This document shows, one piece after another, positions 2,941-56,988 of a stretch of 64,000 nucleotides of DNA (the stretch's first letter is position 1; every line of letters begins with the position of its first letter). The translations under genes and the position numbers were made by a program. Below the pieces are notes generated by a model. That model was given only the letters and a program-made list of their open reading frames with translations. It made no database searches and was not told the DNA's origin. The DNA comes from Acidimicrobiales bacterium (GTDB lineage Bacteria > Actinomycetota > Acidimicrobiia > Acidimicrobiales > SHLQ01), in contig JAHDEJ010000023.1 of assembly GCA_020628865.1 (NCBI GenBank), positions 2,578-66,577 of the forward strand. Reading direction: 5' to 3'.

Positions 2941-4173
2941 ATGGCAACCACTGACGCAACAACAGTCGAACTCGGACTTCCCGGCGACCTCGGTCCGTTG
3001 CGGATCGGGTTCGTGTCGGCGTTCCCTCCGGGGAAGAACAGCCTGAACGAGTTCGGCTGGCATGTCGTCAACGCGTTGGCGGAGAAGGACGACGTCGCTG
3101 AGGTCGTGTTGTTCGCCGATGACACGGAGTCGGGACCGCCGACACCGATCGAAGGCGTGACCTCCCGGGTCAGCTGGAGCTTCAACAAGGTCACCAACGT
3201 GCTGTCGCTCGCTCGTGCGATTCGCAAGGCGAAGCCGGACGCCGTGGTCTTCAACCTGCAGTTTGCGACGTTCGGCGACACGAAGGTCGCCGGCGGGCTC
3301 GGCCTGCTCACGCCCGCCGTCGTCAAGGCGATGGGCATCCCGACGGCGTCGATTCTCCACAACCTCGTTGAGAACGTGGACATGGAGGACGCCGGCTTCG
3401 CCGGCAACGCACTCATGGCGAAGATCATGAACATGGCGGGTCGCTTCCTCACCAAGGCCATCCTGCGCTCGGACTACGTGGCGCTCACGGTGCCGCAGTA
3501 CGTCGAGCTCCTCGAGGAGCAGTACGACGCAGAGAACGCCATCCTCGTCCCGCACGGTTCGTTCGAGACGATCGACGAGCCGGACTTCAGCATCCCGGAT
3601 GGGCCGCGCAAGCTGCTGGCCTTCGGCAAGTGGGGCACCTACAAGACGGTCGACGTACTGATCGACGCCCAGCGCGAACTGATTCGTCGGGGCTTCGACG
3701 ACGTCGAGGTCGTGATCGCCGGTACCGACAGCCCGAATGCACCCGGCTATCTCGACGGTGTGGCTGCCGGCTGTTCGGATCTGGATTCGGTGACGTTCAC
3801 GGGCTACGTCGAGGAAGAAGATGTGGCACCGCTGTTCACGTCGGCGGCGATCACGGTCTTCCCGTACACGTCGACCACGGGCAGCAGCGGCGTGCTGCAC
3901 CAGGCCGGTTCGTACGGTCGTTGCGCGGTGTTGCCGAAGATCGGCGACTTCGCTGAGGTGATCGAAGAAGAGGGCTTCGTTGGCCAGTACTTCGAGCCGG
4001 GCGACGCCATGAGCCTCGCCGACGCCCTCGAAGAACTCCTGAACGACCCGGCAAAGCGCGAGTCGCAGGGTCGCATGAACTTCTCGGCTGCAGCCGGAAT
4101 TCCGATGGCCGAAGTGGTCGATTGGCACCTGTTCCACCTTGCGGAGCACATCGCCGGAGCCCGGAAGCACTGA
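2941..4173 (+). CDS. Glycosyltransferase, GT-B fold (GT4/GT1-like)
   Basis: 410 residues. The N-terminal Rossmann half starts at RIGFVSAFPPGKNSLNEFGW, typical of GT4 enzymes that take up an acceptor at the membrane face. The C-terminal half has LLAFGKWGTYKTVDVLIDA, then the donor-binding FPYTSTTGSSGVLHQAGSYGR where E-X7-E-like GT4 signatures normally lie. It probably adds a sugar to a lipid-linked or exported polysaccharide; donor and acceptor are unknown. It is first in an eight-gene co-directional run and its TGA overlaps the flippase ATG (TGATG at 4171-4175). Confidence 0.88.
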   Translation: MATTDATTVELGLPGDLGPLRIGFVSAFPPGKNSLNEFGWHVVNALAEKDDVAEVVLFADDTESGPPTPIEGVTSRVSWSFNKVTNVLSLARAIRKAKPDAVVFNLQFATFGDTKVAGGLGLLTPAVVKAMGIPTASILHNLVENVDMEDAGFAGNALMAKIMNMAGRFLTKAILRSDYVALTVPQYVELLEEQYDAENAILVPHGSFETIDEPDFSIPDGPRKLLAFGKWGTYKTVDVLIDAQRELIRRGFDDVEVVIAGTDSPNAPGYLDGVAAGCSDLDSVTFTGYVEEEDVAPLFTSAAITVFPYTSTTGSSGVLHQAGSYGRCAVLPKIGDFAEVIEEEGFVGQYFEPGDAMSLADALEELLNDPAKRESQGRMNFSAAAGIPMAEVVDWHLFHLAEHIAGARKH

Positions 4174-5498
4174 TGTCACTGACGGAAGCTTCTGCGCCGG
4201 AAAAGCCGGAAACGAACGACTCGTCGGCGACGTCCGGCAAGGCGTTGCTCGGCGGTGGCGCGGTCCTGGCGATCTCGATGACGATCGCGAACGGCGGCAA
4301 CTACGCGCTGAACCTGCTGTTGGGTCGCTGGATGACTCCGGCAGCGTTCGCCGACGCGAACCTGATGGTCACGCTCATGCTGTTGGTGACGGCGGTAGCG
4401 GTGGCGCTGCAGCTGATCGCCGCTCGGTTCACGAGCATCCACGAGGCTCGCAACACGCCGCACAAGGCGGACGAGATCGCCAGCTGGCTCGAGGATCGTG
4501 CCGCGCTGATCGGTGTCGGCTTCGCAGCGTTCATCGGGTTGCCCGCCGTCTTCTGGGCGACGACCTTCAACACCGAGTCGTGGGTGCCGTTCGCCGTCCT
4601 CGGTGCCGGCATGCCGTTCTATATCGTCCAGGCCGTCGGTCGTGGTGTGTTGCAGGGCCGGCTCAAGTTCAACTCGCTGGCGATCACCTTCGTGATCGAG
4701 ATGGCGGTGCGCGTCGGCGTGGCGATCGTGCTCGTGCAGCTCGGGTTCGGGGTGACCGGCGCGACGATCGGTCTGACGGCGTCCTTCGTGGCGACCTGGC
4801 TCGCCGTTCGGATGCTCACTCCTCGCTCTGCGGCGGGACGTCCCGACCGCAGCGAGCTCGGCGACTTGGTGACCTACGCCGGTCCTGTGGTCGTGCTCCT
4901 GGTGGGTCAGATCATCATCAACAACGGCGACGTCCTCGTCGTGAAGCGCTTCTTCGATCCGACGGAAGCCGGCATCTATGCCGCCGTCGCCCTGATCGGA
5001 CGGGCAGTTTTCTTTCTCTCCTGGTCGGCCGTCACGGCACTCTTCCCGGCGGTCGCCCAGCGCGATGAAGCCGGGGAAGCATCCGGCGGGCTCCTGCTCG
5101 GCGGCCTCGCTGTGGTCGGCGGGCTGTGCAGCTTCATGGTGTTGATGGCCTGGATCGTCGGCGACCGGGTCTTCACTTTTGCGTTGGGTGATGCGTACGC
5201 CGGTGTCGGGCATCTCCTCGTGCAGTACGCCATCGCCACTTCGCTGTTCACGATGGCCAACCTGATCGTGAGTTACCACCTCTCCACCGGTCGCGTGCTC
5301 GAGGCGTGGATTCTGCTCGCCGGCGGCGTGTTGCAGACCACCCTCCTCCTCATCTGGAACTCGACACCGGAGGTCGTCGTCGTCGATCAGTTGGTCGCCA
5401 TGGCGATCCTGCTCGTTGCGGTCGCCGCGTCCACGGTGCTCGTGAAGCACACCCCCTCTTCCCACAAAGCACCATCAGTCGAAAGGGTCGAAGCATGA
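4173..5498 (+). CDS. Polysaccharide flippase (Wzx/MurJ-like, MOP superfamily)
   Basis: 441 residues with about 12-14 hydrophobic segments, opening with ALLGGGAVLAISMTIANGGN and the RWMTPAAFADANLMVT pattern common in Wzx/PST exporters. Members move lipid-linked oligosaccharide across the inner membrane. ATG 4173 is chosen over an upstream in-frame ATG (4122) because it overlaps the transferase stop and puts the protein's short hydrophilic N-terminus in the usual place. The next gene starts at 5495 through an ATGA overlap. Together with its two flanking transferases it forms a compact glycan-export unit. Confidence 0.88.
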   Translation: MSLTEASAPEKPETNDSSATSGKALLGGGAVLAISMTIANGGNYALNLLLGRWMTPAAFADANLMVTLMLLVTAVAVALQLIAARFTSIHEARNTPHKADEIASWLEDRAALIGVGFAAFIGLPAVFWATTFNTESWVPFAVLGAGMPFYIVQAVGRGVLQGRLKFNSLAITFVIEMAVRVGVAIVLVQLGFGVTGATIGLTASFVATWLAVRMLTPRSAAGRPDRSELGDLVTYAGPVVVLLVGQIIINNGDVLVVKRFFDPTEAGIYAAVALIGRAVFFLSWSAVTALFPAVAQRDEAGEASGGLLLGGLAVVGGLCSFMVLMAWIVGDRVFTFALGDAYAGVGHLLVQYAIATSLFTMANLIVSYHLSTGRVLEAWILLAGGVLQTTLLLIWNSTPEVVVVDQLVAMAILLVAVAASTVLVKHTPSSHKAPSVERVEA

Positions 5499-6313
5499 AG
5501 GGCTATCGCCACTGGTCAACGGTTCCGTTGCAGGAACGACCGAAGATCTCCGTCGTCATTCCGGCGTACAACGAGGAATGGCGCATCCTGCCGACGATCG
5601 GCGCAATCGCCCATGAGATGGCCGAGCGCGACGAGTCGTTCGAGCTGATCGTCTCCGACGACGGTTCGAGTGACGACACGAACAAGCTCGTGCGGGAGCT
5701 GGAGCTGCCGAATCTTCGGTTGATCGAGTCGGTCAACACGGGCAAGGGTGGCGCGGTCCGCCGGGGCGCGCTGGCGGCCAGCGGCGACTACATCCTCTTC
5801 GCCGATGCCGATCAGTCCACGCCGATCCAACAGTTCGATGCGCTCTTTGCGCCGTTGCTGGACGGAAGCGCGCAGGTGGCGATCGGTTCGCGTGGAGCGG
5901 ACGGTGCCGAGGTGGCCAACAAGTCGCTCAAGCGAAAGATCCTCAGTCAGGGTTTGAACACGATCGTCCGGGTCGGGTTCGGCATCAAGCAGAAGGACAC
6001 GCAGTGCGGGTTCAAGCTGTTCACTCGGGAGGCTGCACTGGACCTGTTCGGTCGTCAGCGCATCGATGGCTTCTCGTTCGATCTCGAATTGCTGTTCCTC
6101 GCCAATCGACAGGGCTATGCCGTCGCCGAGATCCCCGTTGAGTGGATCGACGCGCCGGGCTCGACGGTCGACGCAGCAAAGGTGGCCATCCAGTTCCTGA
6201 AGGACCTGGTCAGCCTTCGGCTCCGCGCCATGCGGGGCGGCTATCGACACATCATCCATCAACCTGCCGATTCGTCGGCAACCACGAATCAGCAACTCCG
6301 GAGTGCAGCATGA
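5495..6313 (+). CDS. GT2-family glycosyltransferase (dolichyl-phosphate glucosyltransferase/ALG5-like)
   Basis: 272 residues. A GT-A fold is shown by SVVIPAYNEE (about 18-27), VSDDGSSDDT and the metal-binding DADQST. The long CGFKLF...GFSFDLELL tract is shared with ALG5/DPG synthases, which load glucose onto a polyprenyl phosphate. No C-terminal membrane region is present. ATG 5495 overlaps the flippase stop; an in-frame extension back to 5306 is non-homologous and antisense-like. The product probably makes a polyprenyl-phospho-sugar donor for the same glycan pathway. Its stop overlaps the next start (ATGA, 6310-6313). Confidence 0.9.
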   Translation: MKGYRHWSTVPLQERPKISVVIPAYNEEWRILPTIGAIAHEMAERDESFELIVSDDGSSDDTNKLVRELELPNLRLIESVNTGKGGAVRRGALAASGDYILFADADQSTPIQQFDALFAPLLDGSAQVAIGSRGADGAEVANKSLKRKILSQGLNTIVRVGFGIKQKDTQCGFKLFTREAALDLFGRQRIDGFSFDLELLFLANRQGYAVAEIPVEWIDAPGSTVDAAKVAIQFLKDLVSLRLRAMRGGYRHIIHQPADSSATTNQQLRSAA

Positions 6314-6639
6314 ACATCACCACCAACCAAGGGACCGATTCGACGGTCATCGTGCTCGAGGGTCGTTTCGACGCCCACGAGGCACCTCACGCAGCGTCGG
6401 TCTTCGACTCGGTGCTCGACGAGGGCCAGAACAACATCGACGTGTCGCTTGCGGACGTGCAGTTCATCGACTCCACGGCGCTGGCACAGCTGGTCCGTGT
6501 GATGAAGCGCTGCAAGGAGGCCGGCGGCCAGTTCTCGCTGCTCGAACCTTCGGATCCCGTGCTCGTCATTCTCGAACTGACCGCGCTCGACAAGGCCTTC
6601 AACATCGTTGACGGTCAGAGCGCCGAACAGGCTGCATGA
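6310..6639 (+). CDS. STAS-domain anti-sigma-factor antagonist (RsbV/SpoIIAA-like), first copy
   Basis: 109 residues, a single STAS domain. The phospho-acceptor serine is Ser55 in FIDSTALAQL, in the conserved DS-x-x-L loop. Unphosphorylated STAS proteins bind an RsbW-like kinase and free its partner; phosphorylation releases them. The start is ATG 6310, overlapping the GT2 stop, and the stop overlaps the phosphatase start. This gene is the hinge where polysaccharide genes pass into signalling genes without a gap. Confidence 0.92.
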   Translation: MNITTNQGTDSTVIVLEGRFDAHEAPHAASVFDSVLDEGQNNIDVSLADVQFIDSTALAQLVRVMKRCKEAGGQFSLLEPSDPVLVILELTALDKAFNIVDGQSAEQAA

Positions 6640-8111
6640 CGCCGGACCAGGCGCTTGGTGTCGTCCTCGGACGAGCACTGGATCTGGTTCGCGACCTCGC
6701 GGATCGGTGGGAGCGCGCAGGTGCGCGCGCCGTCTGGTTCGAGGTGGATCAGTGGCCGGACCTCCTCCCACTCACGGGAGCGCCGGAGCCTGACGCCGAT
6801 GATCTGCATCGCTATCCGCTGGACCTCAACGAGTTTACGGGATGGTGTTGTGCCGTCGGCGAGATGAACCGGGGCGACGAGGATCTTGCGCTCGACGTTT
6901 CTCTGGCCTGCCGACTCGCTCGGTACGAACACGACATCGCCCAGTTCACGAAGTCGATCATCGAGTCGAACGACCAGCTGTTGGCGCTCTACGAAATGGC
7001 ATCGAGCCGGGCGTCGATTCTGACGCCCGATGAGCTCGCAACAGATACGGCCGCGGAAGCGATGTCGATGACTCGTTCGGCTGCTGCGCTGGTGGCCGGC
7101 CCGGGCGGCGAGTTCGGTTTCGCCGGCGATGACGACCTCCGGTCGTTGTTGCACGATGCGGTCGATCGACTCGGCGAGAGCACGGACACCCTCGTGCTGC
7201 GCAAACAGAGCGACCAGCTCGTCGATGTCATCGCGCGCCGAATGGACCACGTCGACGGTGCGGTCGTGCTTGCCGGCAAACCGGGCAAGCGGGTCAAGAC
7301 GCCGACGGTGCGGCTCATCGAAGCGGTCGCGGATCGTACCGAGATGCTCTTCCATCTCGAAGCGATGCACGCGACCGAGGTGAAGCGCGCGGTGCTCGAC
7401 CGAGATGCGGCCGCGGCTTCCGAACTTTCTGCCGCCGCACTGCCGGATCGGATGCCAGAGCGGGACGGTCTCGATATCAAGGCACGGATCATTCCTGCCC
7501 GCCTCGGCGGCGGCGACTTCTACATGGTCGTCGACACGGATGATGGCGTGGCCTTCTCTGCCGGCGATGTGTCGGGCAAGGGCCTGGCTGCCGGCGTCGT
7601 GATGACGCTGCTGTGTTCGACGGTTCGCAACGCGGTCCGTCGTCGCAACTGGACCAACGCCGGAGAGCTGATGGCGGAGATCGACGTCGACGTCCGGGAC
7701 TACCTGGAGTCGGCCGGCATGTTCGTCACGATGAGCGTCGGTCTTTGGACCGAAGGCTCCGACAAGATCGAACTCGCAAATGCAGGGCACTCGCCCGTCC
7801 TGCTCCGGACCGGCGACACCGTCGAGTCCATTCCCGCCAACAGCCCACCGGTCGGGGTGCTCCCGGCCGACTCCGGCGAGCATCACGTGATCGAGTTTGT
7901 GCCGGGAACGGTGCTCATGATCGGCAGCGATGGGCTGGCTGAACAGGAAAACGAAGCCGGGGAGCAACTCGGCTACGACGTTTTGGAGTCCTTGATGACT
8001 GGTGAACCCGAAGAGATCATCGACAACCTGTTCGGGGCTGTGCACGATCACGGTCTCGGCGTTGATCGATCCGACGATCAGATGGCCCTCGTGCTCGGGA
8101 GGGCTGCGTGA
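6636..8111 (+). CDS. SpoIIE/RsbU-type PP2C serine phosphatase
   Basis: 491 residues. The N-terminal 260 residues are helical and soluble, without a recognisable PAS, GAF or HAMP domain or membrane segments, and probably act as the sensing/dimerisation part. The C-terminal SpoIIE phosphatase domain (about 275-490) keeps metal-site motifs FSAGDVSGKGL, MIGSDGLAE and RSDDQMALV. Such enzymes dephosphorylate STAS proteins, here probably the product of one or both STAS genes in the operon. It overlaps both neighbours by stop/start codons. Confidence 0.92.
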   Translation: MTPDQALGVVLGRALDLVRDLADRWERAGARAVWFEVDQWPDLLPLTGAPEPDADDLHRYPLDLNEFTGWCCAVGEMNRGDEDLALDVSLACRLARYEHDIAQFTKSIIESNDQLLALYEMASSRASILTPDELATDTAAEAMSMTRSAAALVAGPGGEFGFAGDDDLRSLLHDAVDRLGESTDTLVLRKQSDQLVDVIARRMDHVDGAVVLAGKPGKRVKTPTVRLIEAVADRTEMLFHLEAMHATEVKRAVLDRDAAAASELSAAALPDRMPERDGLDIKARIIPARLGGGDFYMVVDTDDGVAFSAGDVSGKGLAAGVVMTLLCSTVRNAVRRRNWTNAGELMAEIDVDVRDYLESAGMFVTMSVGLWTEGSDKIELANAGHSPVLLRTGDTVESIPANSPPVGVLPADSGEHHVIEFVPGTVLMIGSDGLAEQENEAGEQLGYDVLESLMTGEPEEIIDNLFGAVHDHGLGVDRSDDQMALVLGRAA

Positions 8112-8518
8112 TGGTTGCCCCCTTGCACCTTCCACCGTCCTTGGCGGAACTTCACCAGTTGGGTCCGTGGCTGCGAGAGGCACTGGCCGGGCATCCGATC
8201 GAGCCGCAACTCGCCGGCATCGAGCTGGGTGTCCACGAGTTGTTGACGAACATCGTCGAACACGGTCAGCCGGACTCGAGCACGACCGTGAATCTTGTCT
8301 GTGTTCTCGATGAGGACGCTGCGAGTTTCACGATCACCGATCACGGTTCGGCCGTGGAGCCCGATGATGTGCCCCGTCCGGATCCGGACAAGCCCCAGGT
8401 TCGGGGCTACGGGCTGATGATCATCGAGCAATTGACCGACGTCTTCGACGTGCGACGCGACGGAGACATGAACACGTGGGACCTGCGATTTCCAATCGCT
8501 ACAGGTGCCTCGATCTGA
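8111..8518 (+). CDS. RsbW/SpoIIAB-like histidine-kinase-type ATPase (anti-sigma/switch kinase)
   Basis: 135 residues of a GHKL ATPase: N-box GVHELLTNIVEHG at about 38-50, G1 as ITDHGSAVEP, G2 as RGYGLMIIEQL. Size and layout match RsbW/BtrW-type serine kinases that phosphorylate STAS proteins and sequester a target. ATG 8111 overlaps the previous stop by one base; GTG 8108 directly before it is an equally possible start. No sigma factor gene lies next to it, so its target may be encoded elsewhere or may not be a sigma factor. Confidence 0.9.
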   Translation: MVAPLHLPPSLAELHQLGPWLREALAGHPIEPQLAGIELGVHELLTNIVEHGQPDSSTTVNLVCVLDEDAASFTITDHGSAVEPDDVPRPDPDKPQVRGYGLMIIEQLTDVFDVRRDGDMNTWDLRFPIATGASI

Positions 8519-8534
8519 AGTCGAAGGAGAAACC

Positions 8535-8861
8535 ATGGAACTTCAACGTGAAACAGGAACGTTGCGTGTCGCCGGGCGGGTTGATGCGGTTGTGGCCCCT
8601 GAGCTGCGGGATGCCGTGATCACGCTGGTTGCCGACAACGCTGGTGTGGCCGTGACGGTCGACCTTTCCGGAGTCGACTTCATCGATTCTGCCGGCCTCG
8701 CCTGCCTGGTGCAGGGCATGAAGCGAGCCCGACAGGGTGGTGGCGACCTCCGCTTGACGGCGCCCGAGAACGGCGATGCGTTCCGAGTCTTCGAACTCAC
8801 TCGATTCGATCGGGTCTTCGAATTCGTCGAGGCGCCGGCATCGATGCCGAAGGCGGCATAG
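8535..8861 (+). CDS. STAS-domain anti-sigma-factor antagonist, second copy
   Basis: 108 residues, a single STAS domain with Ser52 in FIDSAGLACLV as the expected phosphorylation site. A clear ribosome-binding site (GAAGGAGA, 8523-8530) precedes ATG 8535, unlike the overlapped starts before it, so it may be made at a higher or independent rate. Two STAS proteins with one kinase and one phosphatase suggest one is the switch input and the other a downstream output. The receiver gene begins 2 bp after its stop. Confidence 0.92.
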   Translation: MELQRETGTLRVAGRVDAVVAPELRDAVITLVADNAGVAVTVDLSGVDFIDSAGLACLVQGMKRARQGGGDLRLTAPENGDAFRVFELTRFDRVFEFVEAPASMPKAA

Positions 8862-8863
8862 CG

Positions 8864-9235
8864 ATGCCGAAGGTACTGGTGGTCGACGACGATGCGGTGA
8901 CTCGGATCACCGTCTCTGCGTTGTTCAGCCGCAATGGCTGCGATGTGGTCGAGGCCGAGGATGCCGCCCACGCCCGCACCCAGTTGGAGGCCCACGATGT
9001 GGACCTCGTGGTGTGCGACTTCGAGATGCCGGGCCAGAACGGCGGAGAGTTTCGCGTGGACCTTGGCGAGGACTATGCGACGCCATTCGTCCTGCTGACC
9101 GGTTTCGGTGGGGAAGCCGAGATCGCTGGTCTCCCCGGTGTCGAGTTGGTCGATGCCGTACTGACCAAGCCGATCGGCTCGTCGTCGATCAGCGACCTGG
9201 TCGACCGATTCCTGGCGGAGTCCAACGCCGCCTGA
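8864..9235 (+). CDS. Single-domain CheY-like response regulator
   Basis: 123 residues, receiver domain only. Acidic pocket Asp8-Asp10, phospho-acceptor Asp52 in VVCDFEMPG, Thr79 in LLTGF and Lys102 in TKPIG are all present. It has no output domain, so it must act by binding a partner, for example the phosphatase earlier in the operon, or act as a phosphate sink. No histidine kinase of the phospho-donor type is in the operon. It is the last gene of the run; the composite palindrome at 9265 lies just downstream. Confidence 0.92.
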   Translation: MPKVLVVDDDAVTRITVSALFSRNGCDVVEAEDAAHARTQLEAHDVDLVVCDFEMPGQNGGEFRVDLGEDYATPFVLLTGFGGEAEIAGLPGVELVDAVLTKPIGSSSISDLVDRFLAESNAA

Positions 9236-9264: not shown

Positions 9265-9305
9265 AGGTGCCTGGCACCTAATGGGGGCTCAGGTGCCAGG
9301 CACCT
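9265..9305. repeat. Composite palindromic element, copy 2, between convergent genes
   Basis: AGGTGCCTGGCACCT at 9265-9279 and AGGTGCCAGGCACCT at 9291-9305 are separated by 11 bp (AATGGGGGCTC). An extra half-site AGGTGCCT is at 9253-9260. The last base of the element is the first base of the TCA that encodes the glycoside hydrolase stop on the minus strand. The 15-bp stem would fold on either transcript, so it could terminate both the receiver operon and the opposing operon. Confidence 0.9.
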
Positions 9306-11476
9306 CAGTCGTTCGGGGTGCTGGCGTCGAGGATCGAGGTGCCGACCCAACCGTGCTCGATGCGAGCCTCGATCGGGATGGGCGGCGGCGTCAGCTGGGA
9401 GCTCAGACGCTCCCACGGCATGGCCGCAGCCTCGTCGTCCTCGCCCGTCTCATCTGTCGGCGGTTCGGGCCGAGCCAGCTGCTCGAGGGTTGCCAACATC
9501 GACCGCTGCGGTTCCGGCTCGGGCTCGATGACCGGTGGCGCCTCGACCGGCTCGATCGTCGGTTCATCGAGCACCTGCACCTGCACCTGCACCGGTGCGG
9601 GCTCGGGGGCGACCGCCGGTTCGCGCCCCTCGGGCACCGGCCGCCGACCGAGACGGATGTCCACGGCGACGACGCCGATTCCATCGTCGTCGCTTCGATC
9701 GTCCGGCGTGTCCCGTCGGTCGCCGAGTGCGTCTTCCATCAGGGTTTCCCAACGGTGCCGAGAGAGCGCGTCGACCTCGGCCGCCGTCCGCCGCTGGCGT
9801 GGCTTCGTCTTCGCGTTCCGGCGATCGCGGATGCGGCCTCCGGCCAGCCACAGTCCGAAAAGTCCGATGACGGCGATCGCAACGAGTCGCCAGAAGGTCT
9901 TCTGGGTGAGGCGATCGACCAGACCAACCGAGGGCACGGCCTCGAGGTCGGCGTCGGATTGGAGGAGCGCGGCCGCCGGCTTCGGTGAGCCGTCGGCGCG
10001 GAGCAGGCCGAGGTGGGTCTGCGGTCCGGCGTTCCAGGGGAGCAGGCCGGCGTCGGTGGGTGCGGCGGCGAGGTCCCAGAGCGTCCACGGCATCACGTTC
10101 TCGATGCCGAGGTTGTCGGCCACGATGCCGATGTCCGCGTAGTAGGCGGCTTGCTCGGCTTCGGTGTGGCCGCCCGGGAAGATCGAGTTCCACGTTGGGA
10201 GGCCGTATTCGCTGAGAAAGAGGGGGCGGCCGTCGGCGTGGGCGACGAGCTGTGGTCCGAGTTCGGAGAGTGTCTCGGGTGTGCCGTAGTGGTGGAAGGA
10301 GAGGACGTCGACCTGGACCGGCGCCGCCAAGGCGGCTTCCGCCGTCGACCACCCGACGGTGGTCGGGGTTCGGGAGTCGAGTTCACGGAGACTGTGTCCG
10401 ATGTGCCCGAGCCAGGCGTACATGAGTTGTTCGGGGACCTCGTTGGCGCCGATGTCGCGGTCGGGTTCGTTCTTGAGGTCCCACATCGCAAGGGCGGGGT
10501 GGTCCCGAAGTGCTTCGACAACGGTGGTCAGGTGGGTGCGGTCCGAATCCCACTTGTCGGTGCGATGGTCGGTGCGTCCGTCGAAGAGCGTGACGACCAC
10601 GCCGAGGCCGTGGGCGTCGGCGCGGTCCATGAGGTCGAGCACCGGGACGAGCTCATCTTCGGTTGTCCAGCGGCCGAGGAAGCCGTCGAACGGAAGGAAG
10701 ATGCGTACCGAATCGAGGCCGAGGTCCGCAATGCGTTGGAAGTCGGCGTCGACGACGGAACCGTCATAGTTGGGCCAGAACGCATCGAAGGGGGTGTCCT
10801 TCGGGTAGTAGTTGATTCCGTTGAGGGCGATGTCGACGCCGTCGGTCGCCGGAGCGACCGGTTCGGTCCACCACCGGTCTTCGATGTCGCGTCGCACCCA
10901 GTGTTGGATGCGCCAGTTGCCGTCTTCGAGGAGCAAGATCGCCTCGTAGGACTCGTCGGTCTGGAGCCAGCCGGTGACGTCGCCGACTTCGGCGGCCCGG
11001 ACCAGTTCGACCCGGTCGGCGGTGAGGCCGATGACCTGTCCGTCCTGGGAGTAGAAGTCGATCCGCAGTTCGTGGGCGATCTGGTGGGTGGGGAGGTTCT
11101 GGGTGTCGCCGACCGAGGCAAGCAGCCCCTCGAGCGCGGAGTTGGAGAAGTACACCTCCAGGCCGGTGGTGTCGCCGGTTTGGGCGACGATCGAGAGCTG
11201 TTCCCACGCTCGCAGCCACGCCGAGGTGACGTCGACGCGGGTGAGCGGTTCCATCTCCCGACGCAGATCCGGCCGGTCGGGCTGCCACAGGACCGCGTCG
11301 AGCTGATCGGCCGGCAGCTTCGCGGCCTCGTTGAAGATCTCGTTGGTCTGTTCCGATTGCGTGATGTCGCCAAACCATCGCGATGCGCCCATCGCAAAGA
11401 GCACGGCGAGGATTCCGAACCAGCCGAGAATGGCCAGCTTGATGATGTTCTTCCGGTTCTTGACGCCGCCTCTCAT
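9305..11476 (-). CDS. Membrane-anchored clan-A glycoside hydrolase (GH5-like)
   Basis: 723 residues. Order: short basic N-terminus, membrane segment at about 12-32, an NTF2-like domain (about 65-205), a TIM barrel (about 215-500), a second membrane segment (about 523-545), and a 180-residue acidic Pro/Glu-rich tail. The barrel keeps both clan-A glutamates: acid/base Glu337 in LKNEPD and nucleophile Glu423 in LSEYGL. The likely topology puts the hydrolase outside and the tail inside. It probably trims or cleaves the glycan made by the same operon, as BcsZ or PelA do in other systems. ATG 11476 overlaps the stop of the small gene before it. Confidence 0.82.
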   Translation of the reverse strand: MRGGVKNRKNIIKLAILGWFGILAVLFAMGASRWFGDITQSEQTNEIFNEAAKLPADQLDAVLWQPDRPDLRREMEPLTRVDVTSAWLRAWEQLSIVAQTGDTTGLEVYFSNSALEGLLASVGDTQNLPTHQIAHELRIDFYSQDGQVIGLTADRVELVRAAEVGDVTGWLQTDESYEAILLLEDGNWRIQHWVRRDIEDRWWTEPVAPATDGVDIALNGINYYPKDTPFDAFWPNYDGSVVDADFQRIADLGLDSVRIFLPFDGFLGRWTTEDELVPVLDLMDRADAHGLGVVVTLFDGRTDHRTDKWDSDRTHLTTVVEALRDHPALAMWDLKNEPDRDIGANEVPEQLMYAWLGHIGHSLRELDSRTPTTVGWSTAEAALAAPVQVDVLSFHHYGTPETLSELGPQLVAHADGRPLFLSEYGLPTWNSIFPGGHTEAEQAAYYADIGIVADNLGIENVMPWTLWDLAAAPTDAGLLPWNAGPQTHLGLLRADGSPKPAAALLQSDADLEAVPSVGLVDRLTQKTFWRLVAIAVIGLFGLWLAGGRIRDRRNAKTKPRQRRTAAEVDALSRHRWETLMEDALGDRRDTPDDRSDDDGIGVVAVDIRLGRRPVPEGREPAVAPEPAPVQVQVQVLDEPTIEPVEAPPVIEPEPEPQRSMLATLEQLARPEPPTDETGEDDEAAAMPWERLSSQLTPPPIPIEARIEHGWVGTSILDASTPND

Positions 11477-11652
11477 GGCAGCCCCGGAACATGATGGATG
11501 TCGGGCAGGCCGATCATCGTGAAGAAGATGCCGACACCACCGGAGAAGAGCAGGCGCGCCATGACGGCGACGGTGGCGAGACCGGCACAGCAGAGCAACG
11601 CAAAGATGACGAGTTTGACCAGGTTCTTGCCGCTCTTGATTCCGCCTTGCAT
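11473..11652 (-). CDS. Small membrane protein (59 residues) in the glycan operon
   Basis: MQGGIKSGKNLVKL leads into one long hydrophobic stretch (about 13-36) and a second shorter one (about 38-50). It is locked into the operon on both sides: its ATG shares a base with the stop of the Ig-like gene (TAATG) and its TGA overlaps the ATG of the hydrolase (ATGA). Its first 14 residues closely match those of the hydrolase (MRGGVKNRKNIIKL), which suggests a shared membrane-insertion or partner-binding signal, or derivation by partial duplication. No known family recognised. The overlaps at both ends make a real gene likely. Confidence 0.72.
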   Translation of the reverse strand: MQGGIKSGKNLVKLVIFALLCCAGLATVAVMARLLFSGGVGIFFTMIGLPDIHHVPGLP

Positions 11653-12920
11653 TACTGGTCCTCCAGGACGAGTTCGGAGCCGAGTACCCGGACGGTGACT
11701 CGGGTGGTGTCGGCGTCGGCCGGGAAGAAGGCCGTACCGATGCCGAGGGACAGGTCGATGCTGCGAACTTCTCCGTCGGCGAGTTCGACGGTGGCCACCG
11801 CGCCTTCGGGAACGAACGATCCGCGCACGGATCGGATCGGTCCGACGTGGACCATGGTCGTCAGCTCGTTTCGTTCGACCTCGGCGGTCATGGAGGCGAT
11901 GGCGGTCGGGAAGTCGACGTCGAGCACGTCGCTTCGTGTGCCGGAGGCGACGATCATGAGCGTGGCGGAGCCGGGTCGATCGGGAACTTCGAGGGTGAAC
12001 TCGGCCCGACCGTCGATCGTCTGGCTGTGGATCCGTCGGGTGCCGGTGACTCCCGACGTGTCCAGATAGGCGACCACGCCGTCGGGCATGACGTTGCCGA
12101 ACTGGTCGACGAGCACGTCCGATCGGACTCGGATCAATGCCTGTCCGTCGGCGGGAACGATCGGGTCGACGAGTTCGATTTCGAAGGGAACCGGAATGTC
12201 GGCGACTTCGAGAAAGTCGCGTTCGGGGGCGCCGGCTTCGCCGGACTCGGTGGCGATGCGGGTGCGTCCGGTGACCGTCCGGGAGAAGACCTCGTACCAC
12301 GCGAGCAGATCTTCGGTTTCGTCGCTCTCTTCCTCGACGGCGAGGTTGGGTCGTGTCGTGGTGAAGTCGACTCGGGTGCCTTCGGCGACCGGGTTGCCGA
12401 ATTCGTCTTCGGGGATCGCCACCAACATGACGAAGTGCGCAGCGTCGGCGATCACGGTGCGCGGCCCGAGGTAGACGTCGATCGGGTCGGTGGGTGGGCC
12501 GGGTTCGATCTCCACGACCTGGGTGGCGACGGCATCGCCCTGGGCGATCGTGAGCAGCACGCTTCCCGAAGCCGGGCCGTTCACGGCGGCGACGTCGATC
12601 AGCGCGCTCGCCCCATCGGGAGTGAACGGGTACTCGATGAGCCCGTAGCCGGCTTCGAGCGTGGCGACGATCTCGAGCCCGGGCGTGACGCCATCGACGA
12701 GAATCTGGAAGTCCTCACCAGCGCTCACGCGTTCCGGTGCATCGACCGAGAGGACATCGGTCATCGCGATCGTGGGCGGCGCAATCTGCGGAGGCCCGTC
12801 GTCGCCCCGAGGCCAGGTGAACCACAAGGCAACCACGCTGAGGGCGAGCACGATCTCGATGCGGCGGCGACGCGACTTCGGGAGCGCCTTCCAACGGGCG
12901 ACGAACGAATCGATACCCAT
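11652..12920 (-). CDS. Membrane-anchored protein with Ig/invasin-like domains
   Basis: 422 residues. A basic N-terminus (KALPKSRRRRIE) is followed by one membrane segment (about 23-39), then an exported, beta-rich part with several Ig-like (Big/invasin-type) repeats, each with a DEFGNPV or DQFGNVM-like strand typical of bacterial Ig-like group 1 domains. It probably forms a surface or periplasm-equivalent scaffold for the glycan machinery. ATG 12920 overlaps the stop of the upstream gene by one base; a longer frame to 13787 is antisense-like and rejected. Confidence 0.78.
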   Translation of the reverse strand: MGIDSFVARWKALPKSRRRRIEIVLALSVVALWFTWPRGDDGPPQIAPPTIAMTDVLSVDAPERVSAGEDFQILVDGVTPGLEIVATLEAGYGLIEYPFTPDGASALIDVAAVNGPASGSVLLTIAQGDAVATQVVEIEPGPPTDPIDVYLGPRTVIADAAHFVMLVAIPEDEFGNPVAEGTRVDFTTTRPNLAVEEESDETEDLLAWYEVFSRTVTGRTRIATESGEAGAPERDFLEVADIPVPFEIELVDPIVPADGQALIRVRSDVLVDQFGNVMPDGVVAYLDTSGVTGTRRIHSQTIDGRAEFTLEVPDRPGSATLMIVASGTRSDVLDVDFPTAIASMTAEVERNELTTMVHVGPIRSVRGSFVPEGAVATVELADGEVRSIDLSLGIGTAFFPADADTTRVTVRVLGSELVLEDQ

Positions 12921-15900
12921 CACGACGCTCCCATGAACGCGGACAGGTCGATACGGATCGAGTCGTAGGACAGATCGTCGGGTACGTCGACGAGGGTGGG
13001 AAGTTCGCGGAGGATGCCGGTGCTCGGTTCGATGCCGTTGTGGAACTCGATGAGCGGGATGTCGGTTTCGAGGTGTCCGCTGATGTCGTCGAGTTGCACG
13101 CTGAACTCGCCCCGTCGCTGCGACCGGATCGAGTATTCGAGGTAGTAGTTCTGCACCCACATGACCTCGCCGTCTTCGTCGAGGAAGCTGATGAGGATGC
13201 GGGGGATGACGGCTTCGGAGACACCGTCGTTGCGAAGCTCGCCGATGAGTTGGAGGCTGCCATCCGGGTTCTCGACGACCTCGGCGTCGTTGACGCCAAG
13301 ACCGCGGTAGAGCCCGCCGGTGGTGACGACGCCCTTCGCATAGACCTCGGCCGAGGCGATGTCGTCCTCGATCCTGAGCGGCGTGAAGTCGAAGGGGTCG
13401 AAGTCCAGGTTCTGCCCGGCGGCCACTTCTTCGAATCGGATCAGGAATGGGGTGGACTCGCGCGGTCGGATCGCGTGGATGATCTGTTCGGTGGCGTTGT
13501 ACCGGCCGATGATCTCGTCGTCCGCGTTCCGCAGCACGCCGGTGATCGTGATGTCGCCGGGGTCGACGTCGAGGTTGACGACCTCGCCGACGATGACCGG
13601 CTCGCCGTCGACGTCCATGAGATCGATGTGTTTGAGGTAGAGCTCCGGCCGATCCTGGACGTCGGTCAGCTCGGTCGTTCCGGAGGTGACTCGGCGGCGA
13701 CCCTGGATCACGTAGTCCACGTCGGCGCGGCGGGAGAGCTGGTCGGGCGGGATGCTGACCTCGGTCGAGTCGGGTGTGATGTACCACTCGCCGTCACGTT
13801 TGTGGAGTTCGTGGGTCCGCGTGATCGGGTACCAGTTGAGTGCCGTGAGGTATTCGAGGTCGGCCTGCACGATCACGCGGTTCTCGTCGATGACTTCGAT
13901 CGTTTCGACGGTGAGGCTGTCGAGCTTTGCGTAGGACGCGAGCATGCCGCCGCGTACGGACACCTGCAGTCGCCACAATTCCCAGCCCGGCTTGGTGACC
14001 GGGTCGAGCGAGTCGTAGGCGAGCTCCCAGCGCCGGAAGTCGAGGTGGTCGTAGTAGTCCTCCACGACCGTGACGGGGTCGGCGGGTGTCGCGTAGGAAC
14101 GCAGCGCCTGCACGGGGAAGAAGGCGAGGGCGAAGATGATCACGGCGAGGCGGATGCGGCGACGGCGCATCGAGACCCGTCGGGAGAATCGGGCTCGAAC
14201 CTGCCCGATGAGCCGTTCGTTCCAGTGCGGCTTGTTCTCGTCGATGAGTTCGCCCGGCGGAAGGTTGCGTTGGAGTTTGAAGAGGTAGCCGTCGAGCCAG
14301 CCGAAGGGCCCGACGAGAATTCGCTGGTTCGCACGATCCGTGTCGAATTCGGGCTCGACACCGGGACGGCCGAGCAGGTTCCAGGCGAGCAGGTGGAGGG
14401 CGAGGACGATCGCGGCTGGGGGAACGGTGCCCCACATGATTCGCTGCCACGGTGGCACTTCACGCACCGGAAGTTCGGCGGGGAGCGGCGGAATGTCGGC
14501 GCGTTCCCAGACGACGATGCCGTTCTCCAGCGGACCGAGTCGCTGCCAACCGGAGAAGTGCAGGAGCGGGTCGTAGAACTGGTCGTTCGAGAAGACGTAT
14601 TTGAGGTTGTACTTCTCGGGCACTTCGAGGAACTGCTGCAGCGAGCCGAGCCCGGAGATGCCGCGGTACTTGGCGCCTTCCAGTCGTTCGACGGAGGTGG
14701 AGGTGAGTTCGGGGAGGCGCCGGACGGAGTGGTAGTTGCCGTCCACCTGGGTGGCCGTGGTCTGGGCGGACAGCCAGGCGACCTGGTCGCCGAAGCCGAG
14801 GGTCAGGAAGCGCCAGCGTTCGTGCTGGTCCTTCTCGATGAAGGCGACGATCGGGTCGGTGTCGATTCGCTGCGGCTGGAACTTTCGGTACTGGGCGAGC
14901 GTGGCCGAGAACAACGACATCACGACGATGCCGATGATGAACCCGCCCTGGATCCCTCGCCACAGGCGGACGCCGCCGGTTTCGCGAAGCCAGTTTGCGA
15001 TCGTTCCCTTTTCGAGGCTGTGCACGAAGAGACCGCCGAGCGGAAGGATCTGCATGGACGCCCAGAACGTGAACCGGTCGAGGGTGAGAACGTCGAACGC
15101 GTGACCGAGGAGGAGCTTCGGGATCGGCGTGGTGCCGCCAGTGCCGAGCACGAACAGCAGGAAGATCGATGCAGCGATCGGCCACTTGCGATCGAGGGTC
15201 GCCCGCAGGAGTGCGTACGGCAGAACGAAGATCATCATTCCCCACGGGATGACGAAGAACACGAGGCCGATGTTGCGGTCGACGAGGAAGTTGTTTCGGC
15301 TGCCGTGGGGGATAGAGATCTGCGTGATCGGGTCGGTGGCCGACCACCACCAGTAGGGCAGGACGACGATGACGAGGGCCGCGAGGACGCCCAGACCCAT
15401 GACGCAGACGCGCACGAGTGCAGGGCCGGCTCGTCGAACTCGTCGGGCGATCAGCGGGATGAACGTGGTGCTCGTCATCCGGGGGTCGCCACCGAAGGGT
15501 TCGTCGGCGACCGGCTTGCGGGATTCTTCGAGGAGGCCGTGGGCCACGACGGGGCCGAGGAAGAAGACGGAACCGAAGAGCGTGGTGACGTGGTGGCCGG
15601 CGGTGCATGCGGCGAGGACGAGGGTGCCGGAGACCAGGTCGGCGACCCGGCCTTCGAACGCCCACTTGCGCATGTAGGGAAGCGAGTTGAGCAGGAAGGC
15701 GAGCGCCCACGTCGTGGGAAGCTGGCCGAAGACGTGCACGGTCTCGGCGATCGCCGACGAGCCAACGAGCAGGAGCGCGGCGTTGGCGGCCGCCTGCTTG
15801 TGCACCCACATGCGGGAGAACCGGTAGACGCCCACGGTGAGAAGCAGCAGCGCACCGATCTGCAGCAGCGCGAACGCGAGCTCGAGGTCGCCGGTCAGTT

Positions 15901-16399
15901 TGGACAGCGCAGCGGTGGCCTGGTGGGTGCCGGGCGGGTACGAGACCGTGGTGAAGCCGGTGTACCAGCGTTGGTCCCAGGTGCTGAACCAGTCGCGGGC
16001 GTAGTGGTCGCCGAGGAAGATGTGGACGTAGGCGTCGTAGGTGCTCTCGTAGCTGCGGAACAGCAACAGGCCGCCGTGGTAGAAGAGGCAGATGATGAGC
16101 GCCCAGCGGAGGCGAATCGGGATGAGGACGCCGTCGTCATCGTCATCGCTCGGGTAGGCGTCGCGGTCGGTGGTCACCGGTTCGCTGCCGGCAGCCGGTG
16201 GAGGTGGCGACTTCGAGCCGTGGGTTTCGCCGGGAGTTTCGCGGTCGTCGTCCGGCCGGCCGTCGGGGTGGAAGCGCAGGTTGGTGCCGTTGCGCCGCCG
16301 TCGTGGGAGTCGTGGTGCGGGGATCGTGGGGCGCGGCAGGCTGCGGCGTGTCAGCAGTTCGCTGACGGATCCGCGGAGGGCCCCTGTCGTCGCCATCAT
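12920..16399 (-). CDS. Large polytopic membrane protein, GT-C-like, with extracytoplasmic NTF2-like and beta domains
   Basis: About 1159 residues from ATG 16399 (ATG 16396 is next to it). The first 60-100 residues are basic, Pro-rich and Asp-rich and probably cytoplasmic. About 10-12 membrane segments follow, with a first loop STYDAYVHIFLGDHY and WDQRWYTGFTTVSYPPGTH. Acidic first loops and a YPPG motif of this kind occur in GT-C glycosyltransferases that use polyprenyl-phospho-sugars. After the last helix come an NTF2-like domain (DYYDHLDFRRWELAYDSLDP) and two beta domains of FxLYD-like appearance. It heads a four-gene overlapped operon. The function as sugar transferase or polymerase is inference. 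Confidence 0.72.
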   Translation of the reverse strand: MMATTGALRGSVSELLTRRSLPRPTIPAPRLPRRRRNGTNLRFHPDGRPDDDRETPGETHGSKSPPPPAAGSEPVTTDRDAYPSDDDDDGVLIPIRLRWALIICLFYHGGLLLFRSYESTYDAYVHIFLGDHYARDWFSTWDQRWYTGFTTVSYPPGTHQATAALSKLTGDLELAFALLQIGALLLLTVGVYRFSRMWVHKQAAANAALLLVGSSAIAETVHVFGQLPTTWALAFLLNSLPYMRKWAFEGRVADLVSGTLVLAACTAGHHVTTLFGSVFFLGPVVAHGLLEESRKPVADEPFGGDPRMTSTTFIPLIARRVRRAGPALVRVCVMGLGVLAALVIVVLPYWWWSATDPITQISIPHGSRNNFLVDRNIGLVFFVIPWGMMIFVLPYALLRATLDRKWPIAASIFLLFVLGTGGTTPIPKLLLGHAFDVLTLDRFTFWASMQILPLGGLFVHSLEKGTIANWLRETGGVRLWRGIQGGFIIGIVVMSLFSATLAQYRKFQPQRIDTDPIVAFIEKDQHERWRFLTLGFGDQVAWLSAQTTATQVDGNYHSVRRLPELTSTSVERLEGAKYRGISGLGSLQQFLEVPEKYNLKYVFSNDQFYDPLLHFSGWQRLGPLENGIVVWERADIPPLPAELPVREVPPWQRIMWGTVPPAAIVLALHLLAWNLLGRPGVEPEFDTDRANQRILVGPFGWLDGYLFKLQRNLPPGELIDENKPHWNERLIGQVRARFSRRVSMRRRRIRLAVIIFALAFFPVQALRSYATPADPVTVVEDYYDHLDFRRWELAYDSLDPVTKPGWELWRLQVSVRGGMLASYAKLDSLTVETIEVIDENRVIVQADLEYLTALNWYPITRTHELHKRDGEWYITPDSTEVSIPPDQLSRRADVDYVIQGRRRVTSGTTELTDVQDRPELYLKHIDLMDVDGEPVIVGEVVNLDVDPGDITITGVLRNADDEIIGRYNATEQIIHAIRPRESTPFLIRFEEVAAGQNLDFDPFDFTPLRIEDDIASAEVYAKGVVTTGGLYRGLGVNDAEVVENPDGSLQLIGELRNDGVSEAVIPRILISFLDEDGEVMWVQNYYLEYSIRSQRRGEFSVQLDDISGHLETDIPLIEFHNGIEPSTGILRELPTLVDVPDDLSYDSIRIDLSAFMGAS

Positions 16400-16589
16400 T
16401 CCCACATGTCCACATCGGCGAAATCGTTGATTTCTGAATGCGCGTAGCGGGAATGACACGTGGTCCTTACCCATGTGAAGCCCGGATCATTTTTCGTGGT
16501 TGTCGTGTGGGCCGTTTGGCCCGTTCCGTCAGCGACGTCGTGCGTGCGGCGCCTCAAGCGCCCGCGGTGTCGCGTCGACACCACAGGGC

Positions 16590-27572: not shown

Positions 27573-30500
27573 ATGACGGGTTTCACGGTTTCGGGCGTTT
27601 CGGGCGTTTCGGGTGGCCAAGGCCTCCGACGGAAGCCTTTGAGCACGGCGAAACGGTTGCAGACAACCGTTGCCGTGCTCGCAGTGGTGATGCTCTTTGC
27701 ATCACTGCTTGCAGTCGTACAACGCGGCGACTACCTCGAGTCAGTTGCCGAGGCGCCGACACGTGATCTGGTCAATCCGGCCGACACGCTCACGAGTGCC
27801 GAGGCTGCGCTGCTCGAGCAGCTGGCCCGGGTGGGCGACGGCATCACCCTTGAAGGCGCAAACGGCGAAACCACATCGCTCGACGGTCGCTTCATGCTGG
27901 CCGGCGCGGCGTTCGAGACGGACAGCGGCTCCTCCTTCTCCGTTGTCACGTCCTCCTGGATGGGCGCCGAGATCACCAGCGCAGCAGAACCCGTTTTGGA
28001 AGGCGACCGAATCGTCTACGCGCACGACGGTCTCACCGAGTGGTGGGTCCGCAACGGTCGCGGGTACGAGCAGGGATGGACCGTCGATGCACCGCCGGCC
28101 GACGGTTCCACCGACCTGACGCTCGACATCATCTTCGAGGGAGCGGCCACCACCCAGCTCTCACCCACCACCGTCGAACTCATTCTCGGCGACGGCACCC
28201 GGGCCTGGTACCGCAACCTTCACGCGTTCGACGCGGAGGGCACCCCGCTTCCCGCGTACCTCACCACGCAGGGCAGCCAGGTCACCGTCACGGTCGAAGC
28301 CGAAGGCGCCGTCTACCCGGTGACCATCGATCCGATCATCGACGCCGACCAGGAGATCAATGCTCCCGCCACCGCCGTCGGCGATCGGTTCGGTGCGGTG
28401 ATCGCGACTGCCGACAGCCTGATGGTCGTCGGTCTTCCCAACGCCGATCGTGACTCCGGAGCAGACCAGGGAGCCGACCGTGGGCGGGTAGAACTCTTCG
28501 GGTGGACCGGGGCCACCTGGCAGCTGCTCGACACGGCCGACTATCCGGGAACCGGTAGCGCACAGTTCGGCTTCTCGGTCGACATCGTCTCGGACTCGGT
28601 GGTGGTGGTCGGCGCACCGGGCGACGACGCCAACGGCACGGACTCGGGCGCGGTCTTCATCTACAACGTCGCCGGTGGCGACACGCTCGCGCTCGAGCAG
28701 ACCGTGTACAAGTGCGATCCCGCTGGGGGCACGTGTGACGGCACCGCAACCGGGGGCTTCGGTGGTGAATGGTTCGGATTCGACGTCGGCATCTCCGCCA
28801 ACAAGCATCTCGTCGTCGGCGCGCCGGGTGTCGATCTGTCGACGCCGGGTGAGGCCTTCGTGTTCACTCCCACGATCGGGCAGTACGCACTTCCTGCCGG
28901 CGGCGAGCTCGCACAGCTGGCCACGATCGGGAACGGCGATCGGTTCGGTGAAGCCGTCGACATCACCGAGAGCGACGAGCTCGTACTGGTCGGCGCTCCC
29001 GGCAACGACGAGGGCGGCGCCACCGACACCGGCGAGGCGTGGCTGTTCAACCTGGCCGCAGCCGACACCTATGCCCTTGCGGCGCGCGAAGTCGGGCCGA
29101 GCTTCACGAACGACTATCAGTACGGTGCCGCCGTTGCGATCGGCCACATCGACAACGACCAGGCGAACCCGGCGATCGCGGCCATCGGCGGTCCCTTCAC
29201 CAGCCGTCGTACCCTGAACTCGCCCGCCTTCTCGGGTACCGTCGAAGTGAAGAACGCCACCGCAGCCGGCTTCGACTCGGTTGCCCTCGGCGACATCTCG
29301 AGTGCCGGCGTGCAGGACGGATTCGGTTTCTCGCTCGAGGTCGACACGAACCTGGTGATCGTCGGCCGTCCATTCGAGAGTGACGTCGCAGTGGACGCCG
29401 GCGCGGTCGACGTTTACGAGTACCTTCCCGCTGGCGACACGATGGACAACGGTGGTGGCGGTGCCAACGCCGCGCCGCTCGCCGCCGCCAGCAACGTCGT
29501 GCAGGACGAGTCCGACGTTCTCGGCTGGTCCGTCGGTTGGCTCTTCGACGACGATCTCGTCGTGGCGGGCGCGCCCGGAGGCGAGGACACCACGAACGGC
29601 CGCACGGCGCCCGACGCCGGCTACGTCGCCTCCTGGACTCCCGGCGGGAGCACCACCTCGGTGACGAGCGGACTGCTGACCTCACGGGCCGACGACCGTT
29701 TCGGCGGCGCCGTGGCCATCAACGGCAACCGAATGGCAGTGCTCGCCTCGGGTGACGAACAGAATGCACCCGGTCAGCTCGGCGCTGTCCTCTTCTACGA
29801 GCGTGCCACCGAGCTCGACCCATGGAGCTTTGACACTGCCGTTGCGGTCCCTGCCGCTGACACGCTCGGCAGCCCGGAGCCGACCGTGGTCGACGTGCCC
29901 TACGGCTCGCTCGACATGAAGGGCAACTTCCTCGTCGTCGGCATGGCCGACGAAGGCGACGAGTTCGAGAACGGCGCCGTCGCCGTGTACTTCCACAACG
30001 GCACCACATGGGTGCTGCGAGACCAGTTCAACGCGTCGGTCGCGAACACCAGCGTCGACGAGTATGGCGGTTTCGGCACCGACGTGGCCATCACCGCCGA
30101 CGGCGATTGGGTGGCCGTCGGCTTCCCTGGCGCCGACGGCTCTCCGGCTCCCTGTGACTTCCCCGACTGCGGCTCGGTCGTCATCCTCGGCTGGAACGGC
30201 GGCGGGTATGACTTCGACGCCGAGACCGGCTCGCCGGACGGCGATGCCAATGGTCGAGTCGGCATCACGGTCGACATCGACCAGATCCCGGGCTCGACGA
30301 ACTACCGCGTGATCTCCGGCGTTCTCGTCGGTGCCGACGCGGTGCACTCGTGGACCTTCGATCCGGCCGACGCCGGTGGCACGCTCGCACTCGAGGCCAG
30401 CATCAGCACGCTGATCGACCAAGGTGAGTCGGTTGCGCTCGACGGAAACCGCCTGGTGGCGGCCCAGTCGTCGACCGCGTCAGACATTGCGATCGTGGCC

Positions 30501-56947: not shown

Positions 56948-56988
56948 AGGTGCCTGGCACCTAAGCGGTCGTTAGGTGCCAGGCACCT
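56948..56988. repeat. Composite palindromic element, copy 4
   Basis: AGGTGCCTGGCACCT at 56948-56962 and AGGTGCCAGGCACCT at 56974-56988, again 11 bp apart, but with a different spacer (AAGCGGTCGTT). A run of C and G tracts (56994-57016) follows before the acyltransferase gene. The invariant spacing despite a changed spacer sequence shows that spacing, not spacer sequence, is what is kept. Confidence 0.88.

Follow-up and report, generated by a model that had tools for sequence, protein, structure and literature searches.

Gene content of the operon

The 64,000-nucleotide stretch analyzed here (the window) belongs to an 89.7-kb contig of an Acidimicrobiales bacterium whose assembly comprises 5.36 Mb in 113 contigs, and it carries, at positions 2941-9235, an operon in which genes for glycan assembly run directly into genes for a partner-switching module. 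Eight genes, all on the + strand and each with a clear Pfam match, follow one another as listed below.

2941..4173, +, GT4 glycosyltransferase (PF13692/PF00534; Glyco_trans_1_4, 2.8e-20)
4173..5498, +, flippase of the Wzx/MATE type (PF13440; Polysacc_synt_3, 2.6e-9)
5495..6313, +, GT2 glycosyltransferase resembling polyprenyl-phosphate hexose synthases (PF00535; Glycos_transf_2, 4.1e-25)
6310..6639, +, STAS1, with a DS-motif serine as phospho-acceptor (PF01740, 7e-15)
6636..8111, +, SpoIIE-type PP2C phosphatase with an N-terminal alpha/beta region and a coiled coil (PF07228; SpoIIE, 7e-33)
8108..8518, +, RsbW-like serine kinase (PF13581; HATPase_c_2, 6e-20)
8535..8861, +, STAS2, with a DS-motif serine as phospho-acceptor (PF01740, 4e-14)
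8864..9235, +, stand-alone receiver (PF00072; Response_reg, 2e-16)

The distances at the successive junctions are -1, -4, -4, -4, -4, +16, and +2 bases, and with spacings confined to the range from -4 to +16 bases the genes are likely to form a single transcript. An Rfam search returned no RNA element and a promoter scan no promoter, while the sole terminator-like site of the scan lay within the flippase gene, fewer than expected by chance. An earlier note on this DNA had described polysaccharide export genes fused with a full partner switch in one unbroken run, and the eight matched genes bear out that run; the word "fused" applies to the operon and not to the proteins, which are encoded by separate genes.

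Integrity of the switch proteins

The operon encodes all parts of an RsbU/V/W module, namely a PP2C phosphatase with an intact metal site, a GHKL kinase with N and G boxes, and STAS proteins with a phosphorylatable serine. Across the orthologous loci that carry the switch (hereafter group A), the DS-motif serine is kept in STAS1 and STAS2 in all aligned rows, the N box, G2 box, and GYGL motif are kept in the RsbW-like kinase, the acceptor aspartate, the threonine, and the lysine are kept in the receiver, and the metal residues of the phosphatase are invariant. The structural model of the phosphatase comprises an N-terminal alpha/beta region, a coiled coil, and the PP2C domain, with the closest fold matches of the latter being RssB, SiaA, and the RsbU-RsbW fusion Rv1364c. 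Natural fusions occur among the relatives, joining PP2C to RsbW at three loci (L027, L045, and L086) and RsbW to STAS2 at one (L051), which indicates that the parts of the switch belong together.

No SigB/F/G-like match was found on the operon contig, in agreement with the remark in the earlier note that no sigma factor is nearby. A SigB/F/G-type sigma factor (233-241 bits, one of the four matches being 1.5 bits under the curated cut-off) was present in 4 of 14 switch-bearing genomes tested and absent from the other 10. The one in the window genome, on contig C29, adjoins its own STAS, RsbW, and PP2C genes, and no sigma factor of this type cognate to the operon's switch was identified in the locus or the genome. 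The absence from 10 of 14 genomes, together with the separate switch of the C29 sigma factor, makes a sigma target unlikely for the operon's switch.

Conservation and co-inheritance

We searched 59 relatives with the phosphatase and 397 Acidimicrobiales genomes with the GT4, the phosphatase, and the H-NOX family, counting a GT4 as close at no less than 58% identity and a phosphatase as close at no less than 107 bits (the next match in another genome scored 89). A close GT4 was found in 23 of the 397 genomes and a close phosphatase in 23, with 22 genomes common to both; the GT4 orthologues of 22 further genomes were 58-71% identical to that of the window. The GT4 occurred without the phosphatase only in G010, where the operon is cut by the contig end (L058), and the phosphatase without the GT4 only in G153, a 74% complete genome whose switch genes sit on a contig of 3.4 kb (L076), so that both mismatches can be attributed to the limits of the assemblies. 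Fisher tests on this co-occurrence give only its scale, related genomes being non-independent. The full eight-gene order stands in one stretch in 18 genomes besides that of the window, although the phosphatases of these relatives share no more than about 26-37% identity with that of the window, and the recurrence of the order at such divergence places the arrangement far beyond chance. Distances among the PP2C, RsbW, STAS, receiver, and H-NOX proteins also tracked those of the GT4 (Mantel r 0.66-0.86; 0 of 2000 permutations). These results provide the conserved co-occurrence that the earlier note had proposed as a check, and the switch and the glycan genes are very probably tied in function.

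The remaining loci fit around this core. In G059 and G179 the operon is cut by contig ends, and in G391 it is split into GT4-flippase (L040) and GT2-to-receiver (L068) parts about 110 kb apart on the same contig, both of which are kept. We had considered L040 as a switchless GT4-flippase locus and rejected it once the rest of the operon was located at L068. Scanning the genome contigs with the phosphatase yielded one further orthologous locus, L016, which has the gene layout of contig C84 of G299 and is the same contig. Another candidate, L029 of G051, was rejected as an orthologue, as it holds STAS-PP2C-RsbW genes without glycan genes and its phosphatase scored 80 bits. This related set (L029:8946-10956) stands beside genes for a periplasmic binding protein and a HAMP histidine kinase, and families f34, f35, and f56 include genomes with similar phosphatases.

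A sister group with STAS proteins but no switch

A second group of loci retains the STAS pair in a different setting. It comprises G023, G069, G004, G005, G006, and G011 (five with useful context and one on a 3-kb contig), plus G550, the one match outside Acidimicrobiales in a GT4 search across the phylum. At the six loci other than that of G550, GT4 and GT2 share one frame, followed by two STAS domains and the flippase; on contigs of sufficient length, genes for a hybrid kinase, H-NOX, and a further kinase come next. Profile searches of the sister group found the STAS domains but no PP2C, and the only RsbW matches were the ATPase domains of the histidine kinases themselves; the loci also had no stand-alone receiver. 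A serine occupied the DS position in 0 of the 14 STAS domains of the group including G550, with A, L, R, M, E, T, or P in its place. In the GT4 tree, group A forms one clade (100/99) apart from the sister group. The kinase, phosphatase, receiver, and phospho-acceptor serine are thus jointly present or absent, whereas the STAS pair is constant, and its persistence without the other parts suggests that the STAS proteins have a closer tie with the glycan machinery than with the kinase. On the simplest reading, the glycan machinery would be what the STAS proteins act on and phosphorylation a brake that can be dispensed with, and the sister group appears to be the best evidence for such an action.

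The G550 locus (L089:9798-19436) encodes a GT4, a GT2, a flippase, two STAS proteins, a hydrolase-like protein, an Ig-like protein, a GT-C transferase, and an OmpR-type regulator, with no switch.

H-NOX genes and a putative phosphorelay at the operon in relatives

At 16 group A loci, genes for a hybrid histidine kinase, an H-NOX protein, and a second kinase lie directly upstream of the operon. Counting the loci with and without the switch (16 and 5, respectively), an H-NOX gene stands beside a histidine kinase gene at the glycan operon in 21 relatives; it does not do so at the window locus. H-NOX was found in 27 of the 29 genomes with the GT4, in 21 of those 27 within 10 kb, versus 12 of the 368 other Acidimicrobiales genomes. 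The hybrid kinase of L022 has the domain order PAS-HisKA-HATPase-REC-Hpt, and G122 and G376 have a REC-Hpt protein upstream of the GT4 in place of the H-NOX module, which fits a transfer from the Hpt domain to the receiver. The module lies elsewhere in the genomes of G014, G024, and G391, in the first two beside a GT-C gene.

Nitric oxide (NO)-type and O2-type H-NOX proteins can be separated by the distal tyrosine (PMC8738867). In 25 sequences of these loci (the distant L060 and L062 being left out), the proximal histidine and the YxSxR motif were kept and the distal tyrosine was absent, with residue numbering inferred from the YxSxR motif; this combination points to NO-type proteins, and NO would, judged from these residues alone, be the ligand. 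Taken together, we consider H-NOX a probable input to the switch in most relatives. The window genome carries its H-NOX genes on contigs C7 and C76, away from the operon, and its single Hpt protein found is a large hybrid kinase on C11.

Three further features were observed at loci of this kind. At the H-NOX-free locus of G122, a protein with CotH-kinase and lamin-tail domains is encoded upstream of the REC-Hpt gene (L041:6163-9330). At L067, a locus of G024, a small gene without a Pfam match follows H-NOX, and the GT-C operon is separated from the H-NOX module by a gene for a STAS-like protein lacking the serine (L067:6416-6796); the full switch of this genome lies elsewhere.

Glycan machinery and neighboring genes

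The best match of the GT2 in the PDB was the dolichol-phosphate mannose synthase 5mlz. Downstream of the operon, on the opposite strand, lie three genes of a neighboring operon, whose counterparts form a conserved set.

9305..11476, -, glycoside-hydrolase-like protein (weak GH2/GH5 matches; homologues adjoin the GT-C gene in relatives)
11652..12920, -, Ig-like protein (Big_1-like, below cut-off)
12920..16474, -, GT-C transferase with NTF2-like and beta domains (fold match to STT3 and ArnT; beside the operon in most relatives)

The modeled GT-C protein, 43-76% identical among relatives, matched STT3 (Z 22.1 over 348 residues), ArnT (Z 17.4), and also AftA, albeit with a Foldseek E-value of only 4e-4, and the model suggests the transmembrane fold of the GT-C class. 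A sequence search of the PDB with this protein gave nothing useful, leaving the fold search alone informative, and a search of 266 genomes of the class added no new genomes. A GT4, a GT2 resembling hexose synthases, a flippase, and a nearby GT-C transferase together indicate lipid-linked glycan assembly, the product of which is probably a lipid-linked surface glycan, either a polysaccharide or protein-bound. The description of the locus as one for polysaccharide export is therefore too narrow, because this set of proteins allows for a glycoprotein as well.

Elsewhere in the window, a dispersed palindromic repeat, AGGTGCCTGGCACCT-N11-AGGTGCCAGGCACCT, occurs at 1163-1203, 9265-9305, and 56948-56988; the genome has 59 such sites, versus 0 for the reversed control pattern, and two copies flank the operon-bearing stretch. 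A single open frame of 4477 amino acids at 27573-41006 encodes a giant protein with FG-GAP and RTX calcium-binding repeats, probably secreted or on the surface, and is adjoined by a gene for a 1251-amino-acid protein with adenylate/guanylate cyclase, AAA, and TPR domains (41047-44802).

Proposed mechanism and alternatives

Gene content and order, co-inheritance, intact sites, H-NOX adjacency, and the joint absence of switch parts in the sister group can be read from the sequences themselves, and the following scheme builds on them. GT4 and GT2 would make lipid-linked sugars, which the flippase would turn outward and the neighboring GT-C transferase would use at the cell surface. The RsbW-like kinase would phosphorylate both STAS proteins at the DS-motif serine, and the SpoIIE-type phosphatase would take the phosphate off again, with unphosphorylated STAS binding one of the glycan proteins (GT4, GT2, or flippase) and activating it. 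A phosphorelay that passes through an Hpt domain would feed the stand-alone receiver, which may in turn set the balance between kinase and phosphatase; in most relatives the relay would begin at the NO-type H-NOX protein and its histidine kinase, while in the window genome, where no H-NOX input lies beside the operon, it may differ. The protein contacts, the sign of regulation, the NO signal, the direct target, and the identity of the glycan in this scheme are what we infer. We regard it as reasonably likely that a partner switch without a sigma target, receiving its input from a phosphorelay, acts through STAS on glycan assembly after transcription. The complete version, in which an NO-gated phosphorelay and a serine switch toggle a glycosyltransferase-flippase complex through direct binding by two STAS proteins that work without phosphorylation in the sister lineage, would couple gas sensing to glycan assembly at the protein level and is a tentative proposal, less likely than not.

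Several observations weigh against this scheme. Four switch-bearing genomes do carry a SigB/F/G-type sigma factor, and the search covered that type only; the switch might also regulate transcription of the operon through some other regulator. Nearly all of the genomes compared are fragmented assemblies. The sister group may represent one evolutionary event, as its position in the GT4 tree allows, and the joint absence would then count as one case; the switch may have been either gained or lost, since the row at the root has a very long branch. In the window genome, the hybrid kinase beside the C7 H-NOX gene lacks an Hpt domain, and G008 has this pair of genes as well although the search returned no close phosphatase for it, which renders NO input in the window genome doubtful.

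In a classical sigma switch, the kinase would be the anti-sigma partner of a sigma factor whose gene lies elsewhere, with the glycan genes as its regulon or on the same transcript. The three classical components with intact sites, and the sigma factors of the window genome and three relatives, would suit such an arrangement; nevertheless, it appears improbable, given the 10 genomes without this type of sigma factor, the full switch that the window genome's sigma factor has for itself on C29, and the sister-group STAS pair, whose existence without kinase or serine an anti-anti-sigma role does not explain. A non-sigma switch acting on transcription or on an unlinked target, such as a regulator or a cyclic di-GMP (c-di-GMP) enzyme, and merely sharing its signal with the glycan genes, is unlikely, albeit less so. 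The receiver could have other partners, the target of SiaABCD is a diguanylate cyclase (PMC8457831), and that of HmpV is unknown (PMC8256260); however, the locus has neither a conserved cyclase nor a conserved DNA-binding regulator, and the STAS pair always accompanies glycosyltransferase and flippase genes, switch or no switch. The divergence of the sister-group STAS domains (profile E-values from 1e-19 to 1e-4) could also mean that they are unrelated recruits or decayed remnants, with the association arising from horizontal transfer of a neutral neighborhood. This is highly improbable, since these domains have retained their place and order as well as open frames and the RFDxH-type motif of STAS1, since the gene order of group A persists at a mean identity of 38% (PP2C and RsbW), at which neutral neighborhoods would not survive, and since G391 keeps both operon halves though they are 110 kb apart.

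Comparison with known systems

A partner switch acting on glycan assembly, as proposed here, has its nearest counterpart in SypE/SypA of Vibrio fischeri, which likewise combines a single-domain STAS protein, an RsbW-type kinase, a PP2C-type phosphatase, and a receiver within a glycan locus (PMC10120452). SypA probably acts below transcription, on a target as yet unknown, and the S56A variant of the protein is active (PMC10120452). SypE, however, unites kinase, receiver, and phosphatase in one protein and is paired with one STAS protein, whereas the operon has four separate genes and two STAS proteins, with nothing closer to a single polypeptide than the PP2C-RsbW or RsbW-STAS2 fusions of some relatives; the glycan machinery is also different, and H-NOX genes share the locus in relatives. 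The Syp-like reading of the earlier note thus stands as to the full switch in a glycan locus, the lack of a nearby sigma factor, the co-occurrence, and the underlying logic; "export" is too narrow, and the proposed H-NOX/phosphorelay input and the sister group are additions to it.

SiaABCD of Pseudomonas aeruginosa resembles the operon in its PP2C, kinase, and phosphorylatable partner and, under the proposed scheme, in having an enzyme rather than a sigma factor as its direct target, with unphosphorylated SiaC directly activating an enzyme (PMC8457831), and the modeled operon phosphatase has the PP2C domain of SiaA as one of its closest fold matches. That target is a diguanylate cyclase, and the operon holds no such enzyme. 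HmpU/HmpV/HmpW of Nostoc punctiforme, compared by description only, comprise a phosphatase, a STAS protein with an unknown target, and a kinase in a locus whose name refers to motility and polysaccharide, and the text consulted describes neither a second STAS protein nor an H-NOX module (PMC8256260). The cyanobacterial icfG/Slr1861 switch was rejected as a precedent, as it acts through SigC according to one paper (PMC12329169). The targets of STAS proteins of the SypA/HmpV type are an open question (PMC10120452, PMC8256260), for which the operon's neighboring genes supply candidates. A natural comparison is also available between loci with the full switch and phospho-acceptor serine and loci with neither, the STAS pair being present in both, and these two circumstances make the STAS target testable on a handful of proteins. 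Lacking both the one-protein SypE architecture and a cyclase target, the operon belongs to neither SypE/SypA nor SiaABCD.

The known outputs of H-NOX/histidine kinase pathways are c-di-GMP, quorum sensing, or DNA-binding regulators, whereas in this locus a partner switch is found. In those pathways, as in the relatives described here, H-NOX stands beside a histidine kinase, and they are tied to communal behavior in other bacteria (PMC8738867); in Vibrio fischeri, NO sensing by HnoX inhibits biofilm formation (Thompson et al. 2019, as cited in PMC11112999). Our literature search, from which subscription journals were mostly excluded and on which we base no claim of priority, returned no report that links partner switching to H-NOX or to acidimicrobia within a single locus. 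Acidimicrobial H-NOX sequences were already known without an assigned role (PMC8738867), and the loci described here give them a likely pathway, alongside a partner switch and a glycan operon.

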